From assembly GCF_000024785.1 (NCBI RefSeq), contig NC_013441.1, positions 4,402,001 through 4,466,000 of the forward strand: a stretch of DNA of 64,000 nt, in the 5' to 3' direction. The stretch is from Gordonia bronchialis DSM 43247. Lineage in GTDB: Bacteria; Actinomycetota; Actinomycetes; Mycobacteriales; Mycobacteriaceae. Of this stretch, positions 51,908 to 62,946 are shown in pieces (within the stretch, counting starts at the first letter, position 1; each line of letters opens with the position of its first letter). The position numbers were made by a program, and so were the translations under genes. Under the pieces are notes generated by a model. It made no database searches and was not told where the DNA came from. It was given only the letters and a program-made list of their open reading frames with translations.

Positions 51908-52192
51908 TCAGCCCGCAGCGATATCTGAGGGATGGGTGGCCAGGGGGGTCACCCGGATGGTCATGTAGGGAAACAACGGCAGCCCGGACAGGATGTCGTG
52001 CAGCTCGTTGTTGTCCGCGACATCGAAGATCGAGAAGTTCGAGTACTCGCCGACGATGCGCCAGATGTGTGGCCACTTGCCGGAGCGTTGCAACTCCTGC
52101 GAGTACGCCTTCTCCCGGGCCACGGTGTCGGCGCGGACATCCGGGTCGAGATCGTTCGGGATGTTGACGTCCATGCGAACGTGGAACAGCAT
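51908..52192 (-). CDS. catC: muconolactone delta-isomerase
   Basis: A 94-residue protein with the catC pattern: MLFHVRMDVNIPNDLDPDV, QELQRSGKWPHIWRIVGEYS and NNELHDILSGLPLFPYM. It isomerises muconolactone to 3-oxoadipate enol-lactone in the catechol branch. It starts four bases after catB. The stop codon lies in a weak hairpin (GGGCTGA / TCAGCCC, 51881-51914) that precedes catA. Confidence 0.96.
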   Translation of the reverse strand: MLFHVRMDVNIPNDLDPDVRADTVAREKAYSQELQRSGKWPHIWRIVGEYSNFSIFDVADNNELHDILSGLPLFPYMTIRVTPLATHPSDIAAG

Positions 52193-52196
52193 CCGC

Positions 52197-53309
52197 TCAG
52201 CTCCGTTCCTGATCGATGCGGTAGTGGGCCAGTTTGTCGGGATCGATCTCGATCCCGATTCCGTTGCCGGGCAACCGATGCAGGAATCCACCACGGATCT
52301 GCAGCGGCTCCGTGAGCAGGTCGTCACTCATGTCGAGGAAGTTCGAGAGTTCCCCGGCGTAGTGCGACGTCGACGAGTAGGCACATCCGAAGGCCAGCGT
52401 GCAGGCCGAACCCACCTGACCGTCGATCTGGTTGCCCATCACCACCTCGATGCCGAGTCCGTCTGCAAGATGGTGTACCCGTTGCGAATTGGTGAAGCCG
52501 GTGCGTGCGGTCTTGATGTTGATCGCGGTGGCCGAGCCGCCCAGGATCTCGCGGGTGACGTCGGCCGGTGTCGGCACCGACTCGTCGGCGATGAAGGGCA
52601 CCGGGGTCTGCCCGACGAGCCACCGGCGTCCCAGCACATCATCTGCGGGACAGAGCTCTTCGGCGAACAACAGGTCCAGGTCACTCATCTCGCGCATCGC
52701 CCGCGCCGACTCCGCCGGCGACCAGCCGCGGTTGCCGTCGACGTACAGTTCCACCTCACCGCCGAAATGCGCTCGCAAAGCCCGCACCACCGCGGTGTCG
52801 AGGGTCACCGGACGGCGTCCCACCTTGACCTTGAAAGTGGTGATGCCGTAGGTATCTCGCATCTTCTGGGCCTCGGCGACCATCACTGCCGGCTCGTCGA
52901 AGCCGAGCATGTGGCTGACCTTCATCCGATTGGTGAACCCGCCGAGCAGATCCGAGACGGAGACGTCGAGCGTCTTGCCCAGCGCGTCCCAGATCGCCAT
53001 GTCGATGGCGCATTTCGCGGTCGGGTTCCCGATGGTCCGGGCCATCCGGTCGCCGGCGACCTCACGTTCGAGCAGCGTCAGGCCGACGATCTGCGGGGCG
53101 AAGACATCCTCGATGACCGCGACGATGCCGCGTTGGGTCTCGCCGTAGGTGAACGGGCGCGGGGGTGCCTCCGCGACACCGACGACACCGTCGTCGGTGT
53201 GCACACGGACCAGCACGTGCGACGCCACCCGGACCTCACCGGAAGCGAAGACCAATGGTTTGCGGTACGGGATGGCGAACGGGATCGCTTCGATCCTCGT
53301 GATTTTCAC
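52197..53309 (-). CDS. catB: muconate cycloisomerase
   Basis: A 370-residue enolase-superfamily enzyme that lactonises cis,cis-muconate to muconolactone. The catalytic lysine motif is TTFKVKVG, with metal ligands in YVDGNRGW, LFAEELCP and FIADESVP, and the second lysine region in INIKTARTG. Length and motifs fit CatB rather than a chloromuconate enzyme, but substrate range is not decided from sequence. Its ATG overlaps the stop of the LysR gene by four bases. Confidence 0.95.
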   Translation of the reverse strand: MKITRIEAIPFAIPYRKPLVFASGEVRVASHVLVRVHTDDGVVGVAEAPPRPFTYGETQRGIVAVIEDVFAPQIVGLTLLEREVAGDRMARTIGNPTAKCAIDMAIWDALGKTLDVSVSDLLGGFTNRMKVSHMLGFDEPAVMVAEAQKMRDTYGITTFKVKVGRRPVTLDTAVVRALRAHFGGEVELYVDGNRGWSPAESARAMREMSDLDLLFAEELCPADDVLGRRWLVGQTPVPFIADESVPTPADVTREILGGSATAINIKTARTGFTNSQRVHHLADGLGIEVVMGNQIDGQVGSACTLAFGCAYSSTSHYAGELSNFLDMSDDLLTEPLQIRGGFLHRLPGNGIGIEIDPDKLAHYRIDQERS

Positions 53310-54205
53310 AGCAAGTCTCCTGAAACAGAGGCGAATTCGGCTTCGATGACACCGATCACGGCGTCGACGACGGGATTGTCCTCGGAGGCACGGCGAGCCA
53401 GCGCGAGCTCGACGCTGCCCGCATCGACGAGGTCACGGATCACGATGCCCTCAATCGGCAGCGACCGCACCGACGCCGGGACCACCGCGATACCGAGGCC
53501 CGCCGCGACGAGCGCGAGCAGCACCGCGGTGCCGGGCGCCTCGTGATCGCGGCGTGGGACGAAATCGGCTGCGCGACAGCTACGTAACACGGCCTCATTG
53601 ACTGCCGAGTCACGGCTGCCGTACATCACGAAGGACTCGTTGCGCAGGTCGGTCATCGACACGACAGGTTCGACGGCGAGCCGATGATCGGCACTGACCG
53701 CGAGCACGAGCTGCTCGGAGTCCAGGGTGCGGACCTCGATGTCCTCACCAACCGACGGTGGGCGCAGCAATCCGAGGTTGGTCGCACCGCTGCGCAGCGC
53801 GTCGCACTGTGCCGGGGTGAGCATGTCCGCCGAGATGGCCACGCCCACGTCGGGCAGCTCGCGGTTGACCGCGCGCACAATTCGCGGCAGATGCGAGAAG
53901 GCGGCGGTGCCGGTCAGGCCGAGCCGGACCAGGCCGCTGCGGCCGGCGGCGATACGACGTACCCCGCGCACCGCGTCGTCGACGCTGCCGAGGATGCGCT
54001 GTACCTCGGTGTAGAGGTACTCGCCGGCGGTGGTGGGCGTGACGCGACGCGTCGTCCGGGTGAACAGCGGGACATCGAGTTCGGCCTCGAGCTGCCGGAT
54101 CGCGTAGGACAGCGCCGGCTGCGCCACATGCAATTGAGCAGCCGCCTGCCCGAAATGACAGGTCTCGGCCACCGCTGCGAAATAGCGGAGGTGACGCAGT
54201 TCCAT
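53306..54205 (-). CDS. LysR-family regulator, CatR-like
   Basis: A 299-residue LysR protein. The helix-turn-helix is FGQAAAQLHVAQPALSYAIRQLE, and the effector domain runs from about residue 90 on, ending LVDAGSVELALARRASEDNP. CatR/BenM relatives bind muconate or benzoate. Here the gene precedes catB with a four-base overlap, so regulator and enzymes share a transcript, and the control region faces benA. ATG at 54205 is chosen because homology starts at MELRHLRYFAAVA. Confidence 0.92.
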   Translation of the reverse strand: MELRHLRYFAAVAETCHFGQAAAQLHVAQPALSYAIRQLEAELDVPLFTRTTRRVTPTTAGEYLYTEVQRILGSVDDAVRGVRRIAAGRSGLVRLGLTGTAAFSHLPRIVRAVNRELPDVGVAISADMLTPAQCDALRSGATNLGLLRPPSVGEDIEVRTLDSEQLVLAVSADHRLAVEPVVSMTDLRNESFVMYGSRDSAVNEAVLRSCRAADFVPRRDHEAPGTAVLLALVAAGLGIAVVPASVRSLPIEGIVIRDLVDAGSVELALARRASEDNPVVDAVIGVIEAEFASVSGDLL

Positions 54206-54363
54206 GAGTTCGGCCTTTGGTGCGAGCGTGTGGGCTGTTGCTCGACCCACCTCGGTGTGACGCGCAACACGTACTCCCAGGGTAGGACCGCCATACATAA
54301 CTGACAAGGACTTGGTTTTGTCCCATTAATCGCTGCTGTTTATCAATAGAGCCCTCATCTGGT

Positions 54364-54381: not shown

Positions 54382-54439
54382 GTGATCGGTGGCACACAGT
54401 GGGAAAGTGCAAGAGACAGCCCACAGGAGGACTCTGCAC

Positions 54440-55867
54440 ATGACCACTTCTCTGCCCCGCCCGGCCCAGCACCAGACGCCCCTTCCGACGCACCTGGGAC
54501 ATGTGTCGTCGGTCCTGTCCGACGCCGTCATCGACGACCGCGACGCGGGTGTCTACCGGGCCAACCGGAGGATCTTCACCGACGAGGAGATCTTCGAGTT
54601 GGAGATGAAGCACATCTTCGAGGGCAACTGGCTCTACCTGGCCCACGAGAGTCAGGTGCCCGAACCCGGCGACTACTTCACCACCTACATCGGTCGCCAG
54701 CCCGTCGTCATCACTCGCGGCAAGGACGGCGAACTCAACTGCCTCATCAACGCCTGCGCGCACCGCGGCGCGATGATCTGCCGCCGTAAGACCGACAACC
54801 GGACCACCCTCACGTGCCCCTTCCACGGCTGGACCTTCCGCAACGACGGCACCCTGCTCAAGGTGAAGGATCCCGATGATGCCGGCTATCCGGAGACCTT
54901 CAACGTCAACGGCTCGCACAACATGACCAAGGTGGCCCGGTTCGACAGCTACCGCGGCTTCCTGTTCGGCAGTATCAACCCCGACGTCGTCGACCTGACC
55001 GAGCACCTCGGTGACACCACCAAGATCATCGACATGCTCGTCGACCAGTCCCCCGAGGGTCTCGAGGTGTTGCGCGGGTCGTCGACCTACACCTACGACG
55101 GTAACTGGAAAGTGCAGGCGGAGAACGGCGCCGACGGCTATCACGTGACAGCCACACACTGGAACTACGCCGCGACCACCTCACGCCGCAACACCGGCGA
55201 ATCCAAGAACGACACCAAGGCACTCGACGCCGGCGGCTGGGGCAAGTCCGGTGGTGGATACTGGTCCTACCCCAACGGCCACCTCTGCCTGTGGACCTGG
55301 GCGGCCAATCCGCAGGACCGTCCGCTCTGGGACAAGATGGATCTGCTCAAAGAGAAGTTCGGGGATGCCAAGGGCGAGTTCATGGTCAAGGGGTCACGCA
55401 ACCTCTGCCTGTACCCCAACGTCTACCTGATGGATCAGTTCTCCACCCAGATCCGCCACTTCCGGCCCATCGCCCCGGACAAGACCGAGGTGACGATCTA
55501 CTGCATCGCTCCCAAGGGTGAGAGCGATCAGGCACGCGCACACCGGATCCGCCAGTACGAGGACTTCTTCAACGCATCCGGCATGGCCACCCCGGACGAT
55601 CTCGAGGAGTTCCGTTCCTGCCAGCTCACCTTCCGCGCCGAGGCCGCACCGTGGAACGACATGAGTCGCGGCGCCCAGCACTGGCGAAACGGGCCCGACG
55701 AGGTCGCCGAATCCCTGGACATGCCCGGGGTGATCTCATCCGGGCGCAAGAACGAGGACGAGGGGCTCTACCCCGTCCAGCACGGCTATTGGCTGACCGC
55801 GATGGAGGCGGCACTGCAGGCCGAGGAAGCGGCCGAGGCCCACGCGAACGGCAAGGCAGGAAACTGA
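54440..55867 (+). CDS. benA: benzoate 1,2-dioxygenase, large (alpha) subunit
   Basis: A 475-residue Rieske oxygenase alpha subunit that, with BenB and BenC, makes benzoate cis-1,2-diol. The Rieske cluster ligands are in [13 protein letters not shown] and [12 protein letters not shown] (CxH...CxxH). The catalytic iron site follows in [18 protein letters not shown], with the bridging aspartate. It has the length and sequence of BenA/XylX. ATG at 54440 is nine bases after AGGAGG. Confidence 0.97.
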
Positions 55868-55868
55868 G

Positions 55869-56414
55869 ATGACCACCACTGACATGACCCCCACCGGAAC
55901 TCAGACACCGGTCTCGGCAACAAAACTCATCACCCAGAACGCCATCGAGCAGTTCCTCTACCGCGAAGCCCGCTACCTCGACGACCGCGAGTTCGAGAAG
56001 TGGCTCGACTGCTACGCCGACGACGTCGTCTACTGGATGCCGTCGTGGGATGACCGCGACAAACTGGTCGAGAACCCGCAACGCGAGATCTCGCTGATCT
56101 ACTACCCCAACAAGGGTGGCCTCGAGGACCGGGTGTTCCGCATTCGGACCGAACGATCCTCGGCGACCTCACTTCCCGAGCCGCGGACGAGCCACAACAT
56201 CAGTAACGTCGAGGTCATCGAGCGTCGAGGAGACCTCGTCGACGTCCGATTCAATTGGCACACCATGTATTTCCGATACAACACGGTGGACCCGTACTAC
56301 GGCACCTCGTTCTACACCATCGACTTCTCCGGTGATCAACCACTGATCCGCCGCAAGACCGTCGTCCTGAAGAACGACTACATCCACCACGTGGTGGACA
56401 TCTACCATTTCTGA
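55869..56414 (+). CDS. benB: benzoate 1,2-dioxygenase, small (beta) subunit
   Basis: A 181-residue beta subunit of the ring-hydroxylating family, with FLYREARYLDDREFEKWLD, YADDVVYWMPSWD and a C-terminal FYTIDFSGDQPLIRRK. It builds the alpha3beta3 structure and has no cofactor. Its ATG is one base after the benA stop codon, so the two are translated together. Confidence 0.97.
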   Translation: MTTTDMTPTGTQTPVSATKLITQNAIEQFLYREARYLDDREFEKWLDCYADDVVYWMPSWDDRDKLVENPQREISLIYYPNKGGLEDRVFRIRTERSSATSLPEPRTSHNISNVEVIERRGDLVDVRFNWHTMYFRYNTVDPYYGTSFYTIDFSGDQPLIRRKTVVLKNDYIHHVVDIYHF

Positions 56415-56417
56415 GGG

Positions 56418-59312
56418 ATGACCATGACAGTCACGACCGACCGGTCGGCAGGTCCCCCGTCCGCCGAGGAAGCCACCGCCCATCAGGTGGCGCTCACCTT
56501 CGAGGACGGCGTCACGCGATTCATCACCTGCCGCGACGACCAGACCGTAGCCGACGCCTCCTACCGACAGCGCATCAACATTCCGCTCGACTGCCGCGAC
56601 GGTGCATGCGGAACCTGCAAGGCGTTCTGCGAATCCGGCGACTACGACGGCGGAACCTACATCGAGGACGCGTTGACCGACGCCGAATCCGCCGAAGGTT
56701 ATGCGTTGCCGTGCTGTATGAAACCGAAGTCCGATCTCGTCCTGCAGATCGCCGCGACCTCGGACATCGCCAAGACACAGGCGGCCACGTTCACCGGGAA
56801 ACTCGTTGATCTCGAGCGTCTCTCGGAGTCGACGGTGCGGATCTCGGTGGACATCGAGAACCGCGGCGCCCTGGCGTTCCTGCCCGGCCAGTACGTCAAC
56901 TTCGCCGTACCCGGAACCGACGACGGTGCCGGCAAGCCGATCACCCGCTCGTACTCGTTCGCCAACGGACCGCACGAGTCGCGACTGCAGTTCCTGGTGA
57001 AGCTCACTCCCGGCGGCGTCATGTCGACATATCTCACGGAGCGCGCCACGGTCGGCGAGGCGGTCAGCTTCACGGGCCCGCACGGATCGTTCTTCCTGCG
57101 TGAATCCTCGCGTCCCGTTTTGCTTCTCGCGGGCGGAACCGGGCTGGCACCGATCCTGTCGATGCTGCGCAAGTTGCACGACGATGACAGTCCTCGCAAG
57201 GCGCACCTGATCTACGGGGTGTCCACCGACACCGACCTGGTGGCACTCGACGACATCGAGTACTTCGCTCGCGAACTCCCCGGCCTCACCTGGGATCACT
57301 GTGTCTCCGACCCGAACTCGTCGGCGACCAACAAGGGCTACGTGATGAGCCTGATCCGCGATCAGCACCTCTATGACGGTGACGTCGCCGTGTACCTGTG
57401 CGGTCCGCCGCCCATGGTCGAATCCGTCCGCAGCCACATCAGCGAGGCCGGCATCGAACCGACCGGCTTCTACTACGAGAAGTTCGCCCTCGCCGGGGCC
57501 GCGGCGGCCAAGACGACTACCTCCTCACCGGCGGCCGAGGCCACCGACGCACCGATGTCGACCGCGGCCGGCAACCCCGAACCCGCTGTCGCCGAATCTG
57601 TTGTCCCCGAATCTGTTGTCCCCGAATCTGTTGTCCCCGGATCTGTTGTCACCGAGTCGGCCACCACCGTCGACGTCGACACCGACGAGCTCATCACCGC
57701 CCCGGACGCCCGCGCGATCGCCGGCCAGGTGACCTTGCCGTCGGCCGAGATCGACCCGTTGGGCCTGTCCGTCGGCACCGGCCCCGACAGCGATTCGCTG
57801 CTCCGCATCGCTGGTCAGCAGGTCTGGTCGGACATCACCGGCGACGGGGATCCACTCGACTCCGATACCGGTGCGCTGCTGCCACATCCGGCCCGCGCGA
57901 TCGCCGGCCAGGAGGTCTTCACCGCTGCCGAGGTGCAACCGCTCGTCGCCCCGGCTCCTCTGCCGACGGAAACTGTTGTGCCGCAATCCGTGCAGGCGCC
58001 CACTCCGGCCGTCGCGGCCGGCGCGCCGACCGTCGGCTCGCAGGGCTACGAGATCGGTGAGGAACATCCGGGTGTGCACGAGTCCGACGCGCTGTTCGAG
58101 GCACGGGCCGCGCTGGAACTCGGTGCGCTCGAACTGACCTTCGGCCGGCTCAGCACCGGTCAGCTCACCGGTTACCGACTGCTCGCCGAAGCGACCCTGC
58201 CCTACGTCGAGGATGACCACTTCGTGGACGCCGCCGAGTACACCGAGACCAACGCCAACTTCCACGACTATCTGTTCACGCTCACCGGCAACAGCCATCT
58301 ACTCGAGGCGTATTCGGCGCTCGGCGTCAAGGGCCGCATGGGGGAGGTCCTGCGCAACGCCACCTGGTGTCACCCGCTGTGTGCACGCGATCACGTCGAC
58401 ATCGTCGACGCCTTCGAGTCGGGTGACCGGGACAAGGCGCGTGCTCTGATCAGTGCCCATGCCGACCGCTCCAAGCAGACCATGCGTCGGGCGATGGCCG
58501 ACGAGATGGCCTCACGCAGACCACGTTTCGTCACTCCCGGTCGGTTCTCCGGCAAGGTCGTGGTGGTGACGGGGGCCGCTCAGGGCATCGGCGCCCAGAC
58601 CGCACGCCGCATCGCGGCCGAGGGCGGCACCATGGTGCTCGCCGACCGGTCCGACCTCGTCAACGAGCTCACCGACGAATTGCGGGCGGATTCATCGGCT
58701 CTCGCGGTCGTCTCCGACCTCGAACGCTACGACGGCGCGACGGCGATCGTCGAGAAGGCGCTCGCCACCTTCGGCCGGGTGGACGTGCTGATCAACAACG
58801 TGGGCGGTGCGATCAACTTCAAGCCGTTCACCGAGTTCACCGACGACGAGATCCGCGCCGAGATCGACCGGTCGCTGATGACCACCCTGCACATGTGCCG
58901 GGCGGTCCTACCCGGCATGGTGCAGCGCGGTAGCGGCGTCATCGTCAACGTGTCCTCGGCGGCCACCCGCGGTATCCATCGGATTCCGTACTCGGCCGCT
59001 AAGGGTGGGATCAACGCGATCACCGCGTCACTGGCGGTGGAGTACGCCGAGCACGGCATCCGGGTGGCGGCAACCGCCCCCGGCGGCACCGAGGCACCAC
59101 CGCGGCGGATCTCTCGTGGCACACCCGAGCCGCGCAACGAGACCGAGTCGCAATGGTTCCAGGCGCACATCGACCAGACGCTCGACTCGTCGCTGCTCAA
59201 ACGGTACGGGACGCTGGACGAGCAGGCCGCCGCGATCTGCTTCCTCGCCTCCGACGAGGCGTCCTACATCACCGGGACGGTGCTCCCGGTGGCCGGCGGT
59301 GACCTCGGGTGA
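56418..59312 (+). CDS. fused benzoate dioxygenase reductase, FCD domain and cis-diol dehydrogenase (BenC-BenD)
   Basis: One continuous 964-residue frame. Residues 1-358 are BenC: the plant-type ferredoxin CRDGACGTCKAFC with a late CC, FAD site RSYSFANGPHES, NAD site LLLAGGTGLAPILSMLRKL and YLCGPPPMVE. Residues about 359-550 are a Pro/Val/Ala-rich linker with four SVVP-type repeats (near 393-414) and three AGQ motifs. Residues about 552-695 match a GntR-type FCD domain, with the metal-binding pattern FHDYLFTLTGNSHLLEAY, DHVDIVDAFESGD and ISAHADRS, but no DNA-binding domain. Residues about 708-964 are BenD, an SDR with VVVTGAAQGIGAQTA, NVSSAATRG and YSAAK. In-frame Met697 (58506) could be an internal start for BenD. 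Confidence 0.9.
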   Translation: MTMTVTTDRSAGPPSAEEATAHQVALTFEDGVTRFITCRDDQTVADASYRQRINIPLDCRDGACGTCKAFCESGDYDGGTYIEDALTDAESAEGYALPCCMKPKSDLVLQIAATSDIAKTQAATFTGKLVDLERLSESTVRISVDIENRGALAFLPGQYVNFAVPGTDDGAGKPITRSYSFANGPHESRLQFLVKLTPGGVMSTYLTERATVGEAVSFTGPHGSFFLRESSRPVLLLAGGTGLAPILSMLRKLHDDDSPRKAHLIYGVSTDTDLVALDDIEYFARELPGLTWDHCVSDPNSSATNKGYVMSLIRDQHLYDGDVAVYLCGPPPMVESVRSHISEAGIEPTGFYYEKFALAGAAAAKTTTSSPAAEATDAPMSTAAGNPEPAVAESVVPESVVPESVVPGSVVTESATTVDVDTDELITAPDARAIAGQVTLPSAEIDPLGLSVGTGPDSDSLLRIAGQQVWSDITGDGDPLDSDTGALLPHPARAIAGQEVFTAAEVQPLVAPAPLPTETVVPQSVQAPTPAVAAGAPTVGSQGYEIGEEHPGVHESDALFEARAALELGALELTFGRLSTGQLTGYRLLAEATLPYVEDDHFVDAAEYTETNANFHDYLFTLTGNSHLLEAYSALGVKGRMGEVLRNATWCHPLCARDHVDIVDAFESGDRDKARALISAHADRSKQTMRRAMADEMASRRPRFVTPGRFSGKVVVVTGAAQGIGAQTARRIAAEGGTMVLADRSDLVNELTDELRADSSALAVVSDLERYDGATAIVEKALATFGRVDVLINNVGGAINFKPFTEFTDDEIRAEIDRSLMTTLHMCRAVLPGMVQRGSGVIVNVSSAATRGIHRIPYSAAKGGINAITASLAVEYAEHGIRVAATAPGGTEAPPRRISRGTPEPRNETESQWFQAHIDQTLDSSLLKRYGTLDEQAAAICFLASDEASYITGTVLPVAGGDLG
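57592..57659 (+). repeat. 15-bp tandem repeat within the BenC-BenD linker
   Basis: Four near-identical copies of GAATCTGTTGTCCCC are in frame and code for the repeating ESVVP pentapeptide (the last copies have G or T substitutions). They lie at the junction between BenC and the FCD domain. In-frame length changes would alter the linker without a frameshift. Confidence 0.85.
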
Positions 59313-59350: not shown

Positions 59351-62032
59351 ATGAAACGCGTGGTGAACAGGGCGCGGTGCATCGGGCGGCAACCTGAACT
59401 CGACGTACTGGCCGAGGAGGTCCGCCACGCCGAGCGCGGCGGAGTTCGCCGCGTCGCGGTCATCGGTCAGCCGGGCGTCGGCAAGAGCGCACTCCTGCGC
59501 GCCGCCGGCGACTACCTCTCCGCAGATCACCCCACTGCGGACCGGAGCGCCGAGGTGCTGTTCGCGACGGTCCCGGCGGATCGGTCCGCGGCGCCCGGCG
59601 CGATGCTGGCCCAACTCCTGCAAACCGAGCCGGGCCCCATTGCGGAGATGACCGACGCGCTGCTGTCGCGGTTGTCGGGGGCGGGTCCGGTCGTGGTCCT
59701 CGTCGACGATGCGCATCACGCGGATGACGAATCACGCTCTGCGCTCGCCGGTCTGCTCGCCCGTCATCGCTCATCACCCGTCGTGGTCGTGGAGGCGGTG
59801 AGCGCCGAGACGTCGTCACCGCTCGCAGACACCGAGTTGCGCCTGGGTGGTCTCGATCCCGAGTCGGTGGGTGAGCTGGCCCGCGATCGCGGCATCATCC
59901 TGCATCCGTCGATGCGTGATCATCTGTGGCGGCACACCGCCGGCGTACCGCGCGACGTCCTGGGCCTTCTCGACGAGGCACCCCGGACGTTGTGGTCACA
60001 ACCCGGGGGCGATCTTCCGGCACCGGCACGCACCCGGGACGAGACGGCCCGGCACCTTGCTTCCTGCCCCGCCGACGGGCGCGCACTCATCGAAGCGATC
60101 GCTGTCCTGGGCGACGAGGAAACGCTCTCTCTCGCAGCAACTCTCGCCGAGGTTACCGATGCGTTCACGGCCGCCGATCAAGGTCTGGCGACGGGGCTGC
60201 TGATCCGCTCGGCGGATCTCGCGCCGGGGCAGGTGAGCATCCGCCTGCGCAGCCCCATCATCCGTGCCGCAGTCATCGAATCGATGGGGCTGCAACGGGT
60301 CTCGGCAGCACATCGGCGGGCTGCCGAGTTGGTGACCGACCCGGTGACTCGACTGCAGCATCGGGTGGCGGCCACCGTCGGCACCGATGCGGCGCTGGCT
60401 GACGAACTCGACGCACTGGCCCGCACGCGTGCCGCCGACGGCGCCTGGCGGGAGGCGGCCAGCCTGTTACGACAGGCCGGGCGTCTCACCGACGAGGGAC
60501 TGGTGCGCGACGAGCGTCAGACCCGTTCGGTGGATGCCCTGCTGTCCGCGGGCGACTGCACCGCCGCGGCGGCACTCATCCCGGCGATCGAAACACTCCG
60601 CGAAACCGCCTTGCGCAATGCGACTCTCGCCTATCTGGCCATCCTGCGGGGACGATCCGCCGAAGCCGAGGTACGGCTGGATCGCGCCTGGTCGATCGTG
60701 AACACCGAACGCGACCCGGACGTGGCATCACTCATCGCCGCACGCCGGGTGCTTCACGCGCTGATCCGCGGACAGGGAGCCGATTTGATCGAATGGGCCG
60801 ACCGAGCCGTCGAATTGACCGGCCCCACATCACCTACCGGGGTGGAGGCCACCGTCATCCGCGGTCTCGGCGAGGCGTGGTCGGGCCATCCGCAACGCGG
60901 TATCGACACCTACCACACAGTGTCCGAGGCCATCCGGCACGGCGCACAGGCCCAGCGGGCCACGATGGGCCGCGGCTGGCTCCAGCTGGGTGTCGACGAG
61001 TTGGATGCCGCGCGTACCAGTCTGGAAACGGCGGTATCGATGGCCCGGCTCGGCGGGTCCGACCGAATCACGTTGTGGTCGTTGGCGTGGCTCGCGCGCG
61101 TCCGGTTTGCGATCGGCGAGTGGGATGCCGCCGTGCATGCCGCGCGGGAGGGACTTGCCCTGGCGGCCACCAGCGGGATCACCATTGCCACCGGTCTTCT
61201 CGAATGGACGCTGGCCCAGATTCTGTCGATGCGCGGCGACTGGGATGGCGCACACGAGGCGGTTCGGCACGCCGAGTCGGCCGGCGCTGATTATCCGACC
61301 ATGGAGATCCCCGCCCGACTCGCCCGCGCGCACGTCGCCGAGGCTGCTGCCGACTACGCAACGGTCATCCATGCCCTGAGTCCGCTGGTGGGCCTGTCAC
61401 GTTCGGTCCCCGCACTCGTCGAACCGGGATTCTGGCCGTGGGTGGACGTTCTGGCCAACGCCCTCATCGTCGAAGGACGGCTCGACGACGCCGAAACGCT
61501 ACTCGCCGGCCATGAGCAGCGCGCGGCCGACCGCGCTCATCCCTCCGCGCAGGCCCGCCTCGGTTATGCCCGCGGACGCCTCCTCGGCGCGCGTGGCGAC
61601 ATCAATGGTGCGCGAGGTGTTTTCGAGCGTTCCGTCGGGCTCGTCCAATCCAGCCCCAACCGGTACGACTCCGCCCGGGTCAACTTCGCCTACGGCCAGA
61701 CATTGCGCCGGGCCGGTAAACGTCGTGATGCCGACCGGGTGATGACGGCGGCCCGCGACATCTTTCTCGCCCTCGGTGCCCAGACCTACGTCGACCGTTG
61801 CGACCGCGAACTCAAGGCCGGCGGCCTCAACACCTCCCCCGGCCGACGCGACGACGTCCACCTCACACCCCAGGAAGAGTCTGTCACAGCGCTTGTGGCA
61901 CAGGGCCTTTCCAACAAAGAGGTTGCAGCCGAACTGTTCATCTCCACCAAGACGGTCCAGTACCACCTCACCCGCATCTACGCGAAGCTCGGATTACGCT
62001 CCCGCGCCGAGCTCGTCGCGGCCCGGCGGTGA
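59351..62032 (+). CDS. LuxR/LAL-type ATPase regulator (BenR-like)
   Basis: An 893-residue regulator. An N-terminal STAND-type ATPase has VAVIGQPGVGKSALLRAAG and VVVLVDDAHHADDES. The middle (about 370-790) is helical repeats of TPR type. The C-terminal LuxR helix-turn-helix is LTPQEESVTALVAQGLSNKE with ISTKTVQYHLTRIYAKLG. It follows the ben genes by 38 bases, as in Corynebacterium glutamicum and Rhodococcus where a LuxR-family BenR sits by the benzoate genes and activates them; that is a family-level comparison. The likely ligand is benzoate or a downstream acid. Confidence 0.9.
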   Translation: MKRVVNRARCIGRQPELDVLAEEVRHAERGGVRRVAVIGQPGVGKSALLRAAGDYLSADHPTADRSAEVLFATVPADRSAAPGAMLAQLLQTEPGPIAEMTDALLSRLSGAGPVVVLVDDAHHADDESRSALAGLLARHRSSPVVVVEAVSAETSSPLADTELRLGGLDPESVGELARDRGIILHPSMRDHLWRHTAGVPRDVLGLLDEAPRTLWSQPGGDLPAPARTRDETARHLASCPADGRALIEAIAVLGDEETLSLAATLAEVTDAFTAADQGLATGLLIRSADLAPGQVSIRLRSPIIRAAVIESMGLQRVSAAHRRAAELVTDPVTRLQHRVAATVGTDAALADELDALARTRAADGAWREAASLLRQAGRLTDEGLVRDERQTRSVDALLSAGDCTAAAALIPAIETLRETALRNATLAYLAILRGRSAEAEVRLDRAWSIVNTERDPDVASLIAARRVLHALIRGQGADLIEWADRAVELTGPTSPTGVEATVIRGLGEAWSGHPQRGIDTYHTVSEAIRHGAQAQRATMGRGWLQLGVDELDAARTSLETAVSMARLGGSDRITLWSLAWLARVRFAIGEWDAAVHAAREGLALAATSGITIATGLLEWTLAQILSMRGDWDGAHEAVRHAESAGADYPTMEIPARLARAHVAEAAADYATVIHALSPLVGLSRSVPALVEPGFWPWVDVLANALIVEGRLDDAETLLAGHEQRAADRAHPSAQARLGYARGRLLGARGDINGARGVFERSVGLVQSSPNRYDSARVNFAYGQTLRRAGKRRDADRVMTAARDIFLALGAQTYVDRCDRELKAGGLNTSPGRRDDVHLTPQEESVTALVAQGLSNKEVAAELFISTKTVQYHLTRIYAKLGLRSRAELVAARR

Positions 62033-62064
62033 CCGCGCACCATCTGCCGGCCGAGCAACCCCAG

Positions 62065-62264
62065 CTGCCGGTTGAGCCGGCCCCCAACTGCTGGTTGAGC
62101 CGGGACCCCCAACTGCTGGTTGAGCCGGGACCCCCGTCGGCCAGTTAAGCCGGCCCCCCAACTGCTGGTTGAGCCGGGACCCCGTCGGCCAGTTAAGCCG
62201 GGACCCCCAACTGCTGGTTGAGCCGGGACCGTCGAGCGAAGCGAGACGGACCCGCGTCGAAACC
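62065..62264. repeat. left REP-like array (24/25-bp units, then one full 54-bp element)
   Basis: Seven units start at about 62065, 62088, 62113, 62137, 62162, 62186 and 62211. The commonest core is CTGCTGGTTGAGCCGGGACC; alternate units have the variant GTCGGCCAGTTAAGCCGG. The last unit continues into a full element ending CCCGCGTCGAAACC at 62264. The same full element, inverted, is repeated on the other side of the nuclease gene. The array follows the regulator stop codon closely and contains no supported gene. Confidence 0.9.
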
Positions 62265-62696: not shown

Positions 62697-62946
62697 GGTT
62701 TCGACGCGGGGCCGTCACGCTATCGCTCGACGGTCCCGGCTCAACCAGCAGGCGGTGGCGCGGTTTCGACGCGGGGCCGTCACGCTACCGCTCGACGGTC
62801 CCGGCTCAACCAGCAGGCGGTGGCGCGGTTTCGACGCGGGGCCGTCACGCTACCGCTCGACGGTCCCGGCTCAACCAGCAGGCGGTGGCGCGGTTTCGAC
62901 GCGGGGCCGTCACGCTACCGCTCGACGGTCCCGGCTCAACCAGCAG
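62697..62946. repeat. right REP-like array, four 65-bp tandem copies
   Basis: The copies start at 62697, 62762, 62827 and 62892, the last being partial at 55 bases. Each has a 55-bp element (GGTTTCGACGCGGGGCCGTC... to ...GGCTCAACCAGCAG) plus a 10-bp spacer; they differ by only one base in the first copy. Read on the minus strand the element matches the left-array element at about 50 of 55 positions. Inside it GGGGCCGTC pairs with GACGGTCCC as a hairpin stem. Degenerate copies (GGCTCAACCAG, GGCTCAGCCAGCAG) continue to 62998. Long frames through it are not genes. Confidence 0.95.

Follow-up and report, generated by a model that had tools for sequence, protein, structure and literature searches.

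In Gordonia alkanivorans YC-RL2, a fusion of benC and benD that includes a GntR-type, ligand-binding FCD domain has been described, with benAB preceding it, a LysR regulator upstream and a LuxR regulator downstream (PMC6362181, 2019). The same domain content and operon layout are found in the DNA studied here, 64,000 nucleotides of Gordonia bronchialis DSM 43247 (NC_013441.1, positions 4,402,001 to 4,466,000; hereafter the window), an agreement that refers to the published description of G. alkanivorans and not to the sequence of that strain. The gene in question, benCD (56418..59312, + strand), starts with ATG and encodes a 964-residue chain in the order BenC, repeat-bearing linker, FCD, BenD, an architecture shared by many soil actinobacteria. 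The fusion itself is thus already published and not new here. Within the literature searched it is stated in PMC6362181 only, an account whose main text, as far as it was available, is silent on mechanism, distribution, metal site and linker repeat; the same literature (supplements not covered) yielded no paper that treats how the fusion works, its spread or its linker, and no mention of the linker repeat. What the present work adds is a conserved repeat tether, a single origin, as read from trees, together with two informative variants, and an intact metal site.

Other described systems share parts of this architecture. Rhodococcus BenC has been named an FCD domain-containing protein, with BenD listed apart (PMC11858498), and a figure legend for Rhodococcus ruber Chol-4 names benC doubly, as reductase component and as diol dehydrogenase, beside a separate benD (PMC6498646), a label unconfirmed against sequence; the accessible part of PMC8879720 held no ben gene content. 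The Rhodococcus-type BenC-FCD protein (L144) resembles the window's chain in having a homologous FCD behind BenC with the same metal residues, but in 12 of the 17 rows of this type the linker is 21-46 residues long, and BenD lies outside the BenC frame. The nearest solved structure to the BenC part, 1krh (E 4.8e-99), which we take to be Acinetobacter BenC, has 338 residues and is BenC by itself. FadR/GntR regulators such as Ps5454, TM0439 and DgoR have a helical FCD with an Asn-His3 metal site as well, but the benCD domain lacks the DNA-binding half and is attached to enzymes. In EPYC1 and CsoS2, a short motif recurs in several copies spaced by disordered sequence; the spaced repeats of benCD are a resemblance only.

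The fused chain and its repeat tether

The benCD frame contains zero internal stops across 964 aa, and both enzyme parts exceed the cut-offs of their equivalog models. The BenC part (residues 22-357; 56481..57488, +) matches NCBIfam NF040810 with 468.2 bits (cut-off 430) and carries the 2Fe-2S ligands Cys59/64/67/99, the FAD motif R177-x-Y179-S180 and a NAD-binding domain, with these residues invariant in an alignment of 104 sequences (A1). The BenD part (residues 709-964; 58542..59309, +), a classical short-chain dehydrogenase/reductase (SDR), matches NF040811 with 409.7 bits (cut-off 380) and possesses the motifs TGAAQGIG at 718-725, Ser846, Tyr858 and Lys862 as well as the NAD(H)-type Asp743, likewise invariant in A1; an Asp has been used as NAD(H)-selecting criterion in SDRs (PMC10579966). 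Between them lie the BenC-FCD linker (residues 358-540; 57489..58037, +), delimited by alignment and modelled by AlphaFold2 mostly at low confidence, and the FCD (residues 541-700; 58038..58517, +), defined by Pfam PF07729, conservation and AlphaFold2. The PF07729 match spans residues 559-683, scores 56.3 bits (cut-off 24.3; E 5.7e-15) and is nearly full-length (profile positions 2-124 of 125); the nine Pfam families reported for the chain at E up to 1 include no DNA-binding domain. A reading of the window made from its sequence only had claimed a single 964-residue BenC/BenD frame with an FCD, without its DNA-binding half, between the enzymes, and both claims hold, the frame being open in relatives as well.

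Within the genus, 31 of 59 genomes (own genome included) contain a benCD match at E 1e-60 or better, in stop-free frames of 924-1140 aa, and BenC, FCD and BenD share one frame in all 30 loci read (L001, L009-L037); for genome G001 we infer the fusion from two matches within one 981-aa frame. One genome (G034) has two distinct benCD genes (C1:602175-604988 and C1:3434951-3437743), 77% and 67-69% identical to that of the window. Among the matches listed, the closest named protein, with 82% identity, belongs to Gordonia sp. NPDC003585. Of the 151 family genomes, 41 have a match, comprising 23 with the fused gene, 15 with BenC-FCD plus a separate BenD and three with BenC without FCD plus a separate BenD, and in the order the gene is fused in all eight matching genomes out of 150. 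The best 80 of 571 named loci, chosen by similarity so that their proportions are not frequencies, comprise 45 fused with FCD, one fused without FCD (Prauserella muralis), four BenC-FCD with BenD not in the same frame and 30 in which the BenC frame contains neither FCD nor BenD. The fused genes with FCD among these 80 belong to Gordonia, Williamsia, Mycobacterium, Mycolicibacterium, Mycolicibacter, Nocardia, Aldersonia, Antrihabitans, Nocardioides, Prauserella, Saccharopolyspora, Amycolatopsis, Actinomycetospora, Pseudonocardia and a Modestobacter bin; each of the 30 de-duplicated named loci with the fusion also contains benA and benB. Extended actinobacterial BenC proteins of about 510 residues, which the sequence-only reading had mentioned, do exist: most unfused BenC-FCD frames with a likely start measure 512-547 aa, and that of Rhodococcus sp. 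CH91, with BenD in a separate frame, 539 aa.

The linker carries a repeat that the sequence-only reading did not mention, with the consensus [A]-R-x-[IV]-A-G-Q-x-[VM]-[FLW]-P in one to three copies about 30 residues apart. In the window these are ARAIAGQVTLP (residues 431-441; 57708..57740, +), LLRIAGQQVWS (residues 461-471; 57798..57830, +) and ARAIAGQEVFT (residues 492-502; 57891..57923, +). This repeat is the conserved exception in an otherwise variable linker across 121 proteins (P0001-P0121); the set contains 277 occurrences of [IVLM]AGQ, the commonest spacing being 30 residues (68 of 164), and one to three exact copies occur within residues 381-600 in 111 proteins and none in ten. In the 82 unique fused linkers from genome loci, [IVLM]AGQ occurs 171 times against a mean of 1.3 and a maximum of 5 in 200 shuffles, and a looser form of the motif 165 times (shuffle mean 0.475, maximum 4). 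At least one loose copy is present in all 82 of these linkers, 59 having two and 12 three, and linkers without exact copies carry variants such as ARAVIGQVMLP or ARGIGGQQVLP. An RxIAGQ-type repeat was found in none of 17 unfused BenC-FCD linkers and, among 32 short BenC tails, in none except for a relic in L151, so that the repeat is, in the rows examined, limited to fused proteins and one split relic. A different repeat is present in the unfused BenC-FCD proteins of one genus (g4, L062-L066), whose long linker contains three copies of I-[AE]-A-R-P-x-G-[YFH]-x-P (IAARPVGYxPP), about 30 residues apart; long repeat tethers are therefore not strictly bound to the fusion.

Furthermore, we searched with a profile of the three-repeat stretches (A3), built from 22 of 36 such stretches, that of the window included. 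Its rows were picked for exactly three AGQ copies, and the AGQ invariance in A3 is therefore there by construction, which leaves the shuffle count on the 82 linkers unaffected. In the genus, matches occur in 31 of 59 genomes, identical to the 31 with benCD; outside benCD there is a single weak match (G056, E 0.003), and the benCD frame of G020 has a second, partial one. In the family, all 23 genomes with the fused gene match, G087 and G187 only weakly, and the 18 with unfused genes do not, further weak matches lying elsewhere in G098, G108 and G191; these searches scored at most 90 (genus) or 35 (family) first-look candidates per genome, and weaker carriers may be missed. Strong A3 matches are confined to benCD in the genomes searched, and the repeat being a tag common to other proteins of the cell was rejected. 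The exact RxIAGQ pattern at DNA level occurs in 62 places of the window's own genome versus 37 for a reversed control, and two patterns on one strand within 200 bases occur there in benCD only. A protein search with A3 gave three short hits, two of which continue into FCD sequence and look like benCD fragments, and among 25 other repeat-profile hits, most of them other cuts of benCD, no BenA or BenB frame was recognised, judged by locus and position. The third short hit, a 113-aa predicted protein (P0122) on an 8,769-base contig, consists almost wholly of three RxxAGQ repeats and could be either a fragment produced by a frameshift or a separate small protein.

The linker of fused rows varies between 77 and 227 residues (median 142), while His681 in the FCD and TGAAQGIG in BenD are separated by 37 residues in 72 of 83 rows, the range over all 83 being 34-42. 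The AlphaFold2 model of the full chain (mean predicted local distance difference test, pLDDT, 72; predicted template modelling score, pTM, 0.51) renders the BenC Fe-S domain poorly and leaves most of the linker under pLDDT 50 (residues 355-426 and 504-533), but gives the FCD seven helices, the last of which (671-700) extends to the BenD junction with a block pLDDT of 84-92 over residues 681-710. As the FCD-BenD spacing is near-fixed, the linker length variable and the modelled helix reaches the junction, BenC sits on a tether and FCD-BenD probably forms a compact module.

Origin and loss of the fusion

A tree of BenC plus BenD with 133 rows, rooted on proteobacterial rows, places the fused rows and L151 (Mycobacterium gordonae) in one clade (99 in the Shimodaira-Hasegawa-like approximate likelihood-ratio test, SH-aLRT). 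At least two genomes (G326, G332) enter this tree twice with their loci cut differently, and it leaves out loci lacking either a BenC or a BenD match, rows with fewer than 280 aligned residues in BenC or 220 in BenD, and exact duplicates. In a more careful tree of 61 rows, a branch supported at 100/100 separates the 37 fused rows and L151 from the rest, and grouping the fused rows without L151 is rejected by the approximately unbiased test (p-AU 0.0013). L151 has BenC and BenD in separate frames and no FCD, and its BenC tail carries a lone ARCIVGQLVF, which we interpret as what is left of the linker repeat. On the trees, the fusion thus has a single origin and has been reversed at least once.

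The unfused BenC-FCD rows fall outside the fused clade, which makes it likely, though not proven, that the FCD joined BenC first and that BenD was appended later to a Rhodococcus-like BenC-FCD form. The order implied by the sequence-only reading, an extended BenC to which BenD was added, is thus the simplest reading of the tree and survives in that sense, but the node joining both groups is weak (support 21). The label "short, separate BenC" requires seven changes on the 61-row tree, so that either the FCD was lost repeatedly or genes passed from one lineage to another. At one locus (L078, G072:C12:1295500-1300500) a short BenC stands with a separate BenD, the other two matched members of its genus (g15) having the fusion; this locus groups with the unfused BenC-FCD rows, suggesting transfer.

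A second informative variant is that of Prauserella muralis (L157:3998-6085), a 695-aa BenC-BenD fusion without FCD but with two repeats in between, that is, a natural FCD deletion. The model of this chain has a mean pLDDT of 73.7 and a pTM of 0.45, and it as well as the full-chain model of the window's protein draws small hairpins at the repeats, at low confidence.

Mechanism and competing explanations

The reading that we favour, at about even confidence, is that of a tethered bifunctional enzyme that recycles NADH and whose repeats dock a partner, probably BenAB. In this mechanism, the BenC part would oxidise NADH and pass the electrons via its 2Fe-2S centre to BenAB, which would convert benzoate to the cis-diol, and BenD on the same chain would oxidise the diol to catechol and give NADH back. 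The flexible tether of 77-227 residues with its one to three RxIAGQ-type repeats would dock a pathway partner, most likely BenAB, while FCD and BenD would act as one module tuned or stabilised by a metal-bound aromatic carboxylate. A single chain would keep BenC and BenD equal in number, and NADH and diol could stay near the dioxygenase. Per benzoate, the pair of BenC and BenD is redox-neutral, and BenAB is trimeric in alpha. Local NADH recycling is consistent with Asp743 in BenD, and the repeats may dock to BenAB, to the chain's own BenD or to the repeats of other chains. The accumulation of the full-length chain, the docking partner, the metal, its ligand and a gain in the transfer of NADH and diol are the parts of this mechanism that we infer. 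A comparison of BenA from 49 fused-locus and 39 unfused-locus rows gave ten clade-specific positions, eight of them within 279-335 (a range whose differing positions include W292, P295, C300, A305, G329 and G335), but a docking site drawn from them was set aside as inseparable from ancestry, because the fused rows form one clade.

Several observations weigh against this tethered-enzyme reading. The literature searched yielded no experiment on the benCD protein, the docking partner of the repeats is putative, the repeats have a low block pLDDT of 55-62 in the full-chain model, and free diffusion of NADH may make local recycling irrelevant. Several BenC lineages are without FCD, which is therefore dispensable, and so is the fusion, as the M. 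gordonae enzymes stand apart with a single repeat relic. Additionally, the Rhodococcus-type BenC-FCD has a separate BenD and no RxIAGQ repeat.

The FCD adds its own evidence. Its metal tetrad N612, H616, H659 and H681 reads NHHH in every one of the 83 fused rows and in 16 of the 17 unfused BenC-FCD rows, several flanking residues being conserved too, and the spacing of 4, 43 and 22 residues compares with 4, 44 and 22 in Ps5454, where Asn144, His148, His192 and His214 are Ni2+ ligands (PMC7674646). The domain is otherwise remote from regulator FCDs, the nearest in the window's own genome sharing 30% identity (24.3 bits) and the nearest solved sequence being PdhR (E 0.11); in the VIA-align fold match, the rows were filled by the SDR part of the chain. 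The sequence-only reading had suggested that the FCD senses a ligand such as benzoate, diol or metal; sensing of metal and ligand is plausible, with the four metal ligands conserved at near-Ps5454 spacing. On this analysis, a divalent metal probably occupies the Asn-His3 site and ligates an aromatic carboxylate, and a carboxylate of the pathway would be the likeliest ligand because benzoate, diol and muconate are carboxylates.

A rival explanation is the FCD as a true allosteric sensor, in which the metal-bound carboxylate would switch BenD, or the electron delivery of BenC, on and off, a possible but on balance unlikely reading. The conserved tetrad with its flanking residues and the near-fixed FCD-BenD joint favour it, as do reports that CitO (PMC4746285) and DgoR (PMC7674646) bind carboxylate ligands with a divalent metal. 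The ligand of the benCD domain is putative, however, the enzymes of P. muralis are still fused without an FCD, other BenC lineages also lack it, and in DgoR metal ions were not found to control DNA binding directly (PMC7674646).

Somewhat more doubtful is that the fusion merely fixes 1:1 synthesis and stability, with a passive linker, the FCD as a leftover dimeriser, and no recycling, sensing or docking. Such an explanation would account for the FCD and the fusion each being missing in some lineages and for a linker that is largely variable; the window's linker even contains a 15-bp tandem repeat (5.4 copies; 57575..57655, +) encoding an ESVVP-like stretch that falls in columns mostly empty among relatives. 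It sits poorly with the presence of at least one loose repeat copy in every one of the 82 unique fused linkers although the rest varies, and with the metal site being intact in all 83 fused rows; with both repeat and metal site conserved, a passive spacer or relic is unlikely. An elaboration in the opposite direction, which we consider speculative, would make the tether a multivalent scaffold. Its RxIAGQ repeats, two or three in number, would on binding fold into one short beta-hairpin each and join oligomeric BenAB and FCD-BenD in a benzoate-oxidising assembly where NADH and diol pass locally; the FCD, a sensor domain of transcription factors taken up into an enzyme, would gate this assembly via a metal-bound aromatic carboxylate.

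It is improbable that the chain is made whole and a separate BenD arises in addition, by an internal start or by proteolysis of the linker. Disordered linkers tend to be protease-prone; near the junction, moreover, 72 of 84 fused genes have an ATG 14 codons ahead of the BenD match and 60 of 84 have one 18 codons ahead, positions that depend on where this match begins and may be off by one or two codons in some rows. In the window, however, these ATGs encode Met693 and Met689, conserved residues in the last FCD helix, and start codons with a Shine-Dalgarno-like site near the junction were counted in 10 of 84 fused genes, against 128 of 840 control stretches. P. muralis has TTG alone in the scanned stretch, without such a site, and no conserved internal BenD start was found across the 84 fused genes. 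Met697, from which the sequence-only reading had envisaged a separate BenD, fares no better, as an ATG was counted there in only 21 of the 84. Nothing was found in favour of an error of sequencing or assembly fusing two genes, and its probability is negligible, since the same frame is open in genus, family and named relatives (30 of 30 genus loci and 45 of the best 80 of 571 named loci, in many genera), which excludes and refutes such an artefact, and the fusion is also published from a genome sequenced by single-molecule real-time (SMRT) technology (PMC6362181).

Gene neighbourhood and implications

The genome holding the window consists of two contigs with a completeness of 100. Upstream of benCD, with a gap of 3 bases, ends benB for the small subunit (55869..56414, +; TIGR03232, 274 bits, cut-off 225.55), preceded by benA for the large subunit of benzoate 1,2-dioxygenase (54389..55867, +; TIGR03229, 801.9 bits, cut-off 780.95), whose frame begins at GTG and whose real start may be further inside. 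A LysR-type regulator (53306..54307, -) is divergent from benABCD, and two genes of the catechol branch are found beyond it, encoding a muconate cycloisomerase-like enzyme (52197..53309, -; TIGR02534, 191.4 bits, below the cut-off of 334.95) and a muconolactone delta-isomerase (51908..52327, -; TIGR03221 and PF02426). Downstream of benCD lies a LuxR-type regulator with AAA and TPR regions (59351..62032, +), in the position of R2 in PMC6362181. The LuxR gene is followed by a 25/49-bp array (62040-62230) and a 65-bp array (62697-62946; 3.8 copies, 99% matches), with a CoA-transferase gene beyond them.

In situ regeneration of NADH for Rieske oxygenases is a stated aim of biocatalysis, and in another pathway separate SDR partners regenerate NADH for such oxygenases (PMC10579966). 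If the tethered-enzyme reading is true, benCD would join the consumer and the producer of NADH in one chain and so give a Rieske dioxygenase an electron supply that recycles itself, and the sensor domain of a regulator would operate within an enzyme. The repeat is a defined short motif, whose partner should be findable by a simple pull-down, and P. muralis (without the FCD) and M. gordonae (without the fusion) offer natural comparisons. While the fusion alone is a published curiosity, it is the conserved repeat tether that adds the interest.

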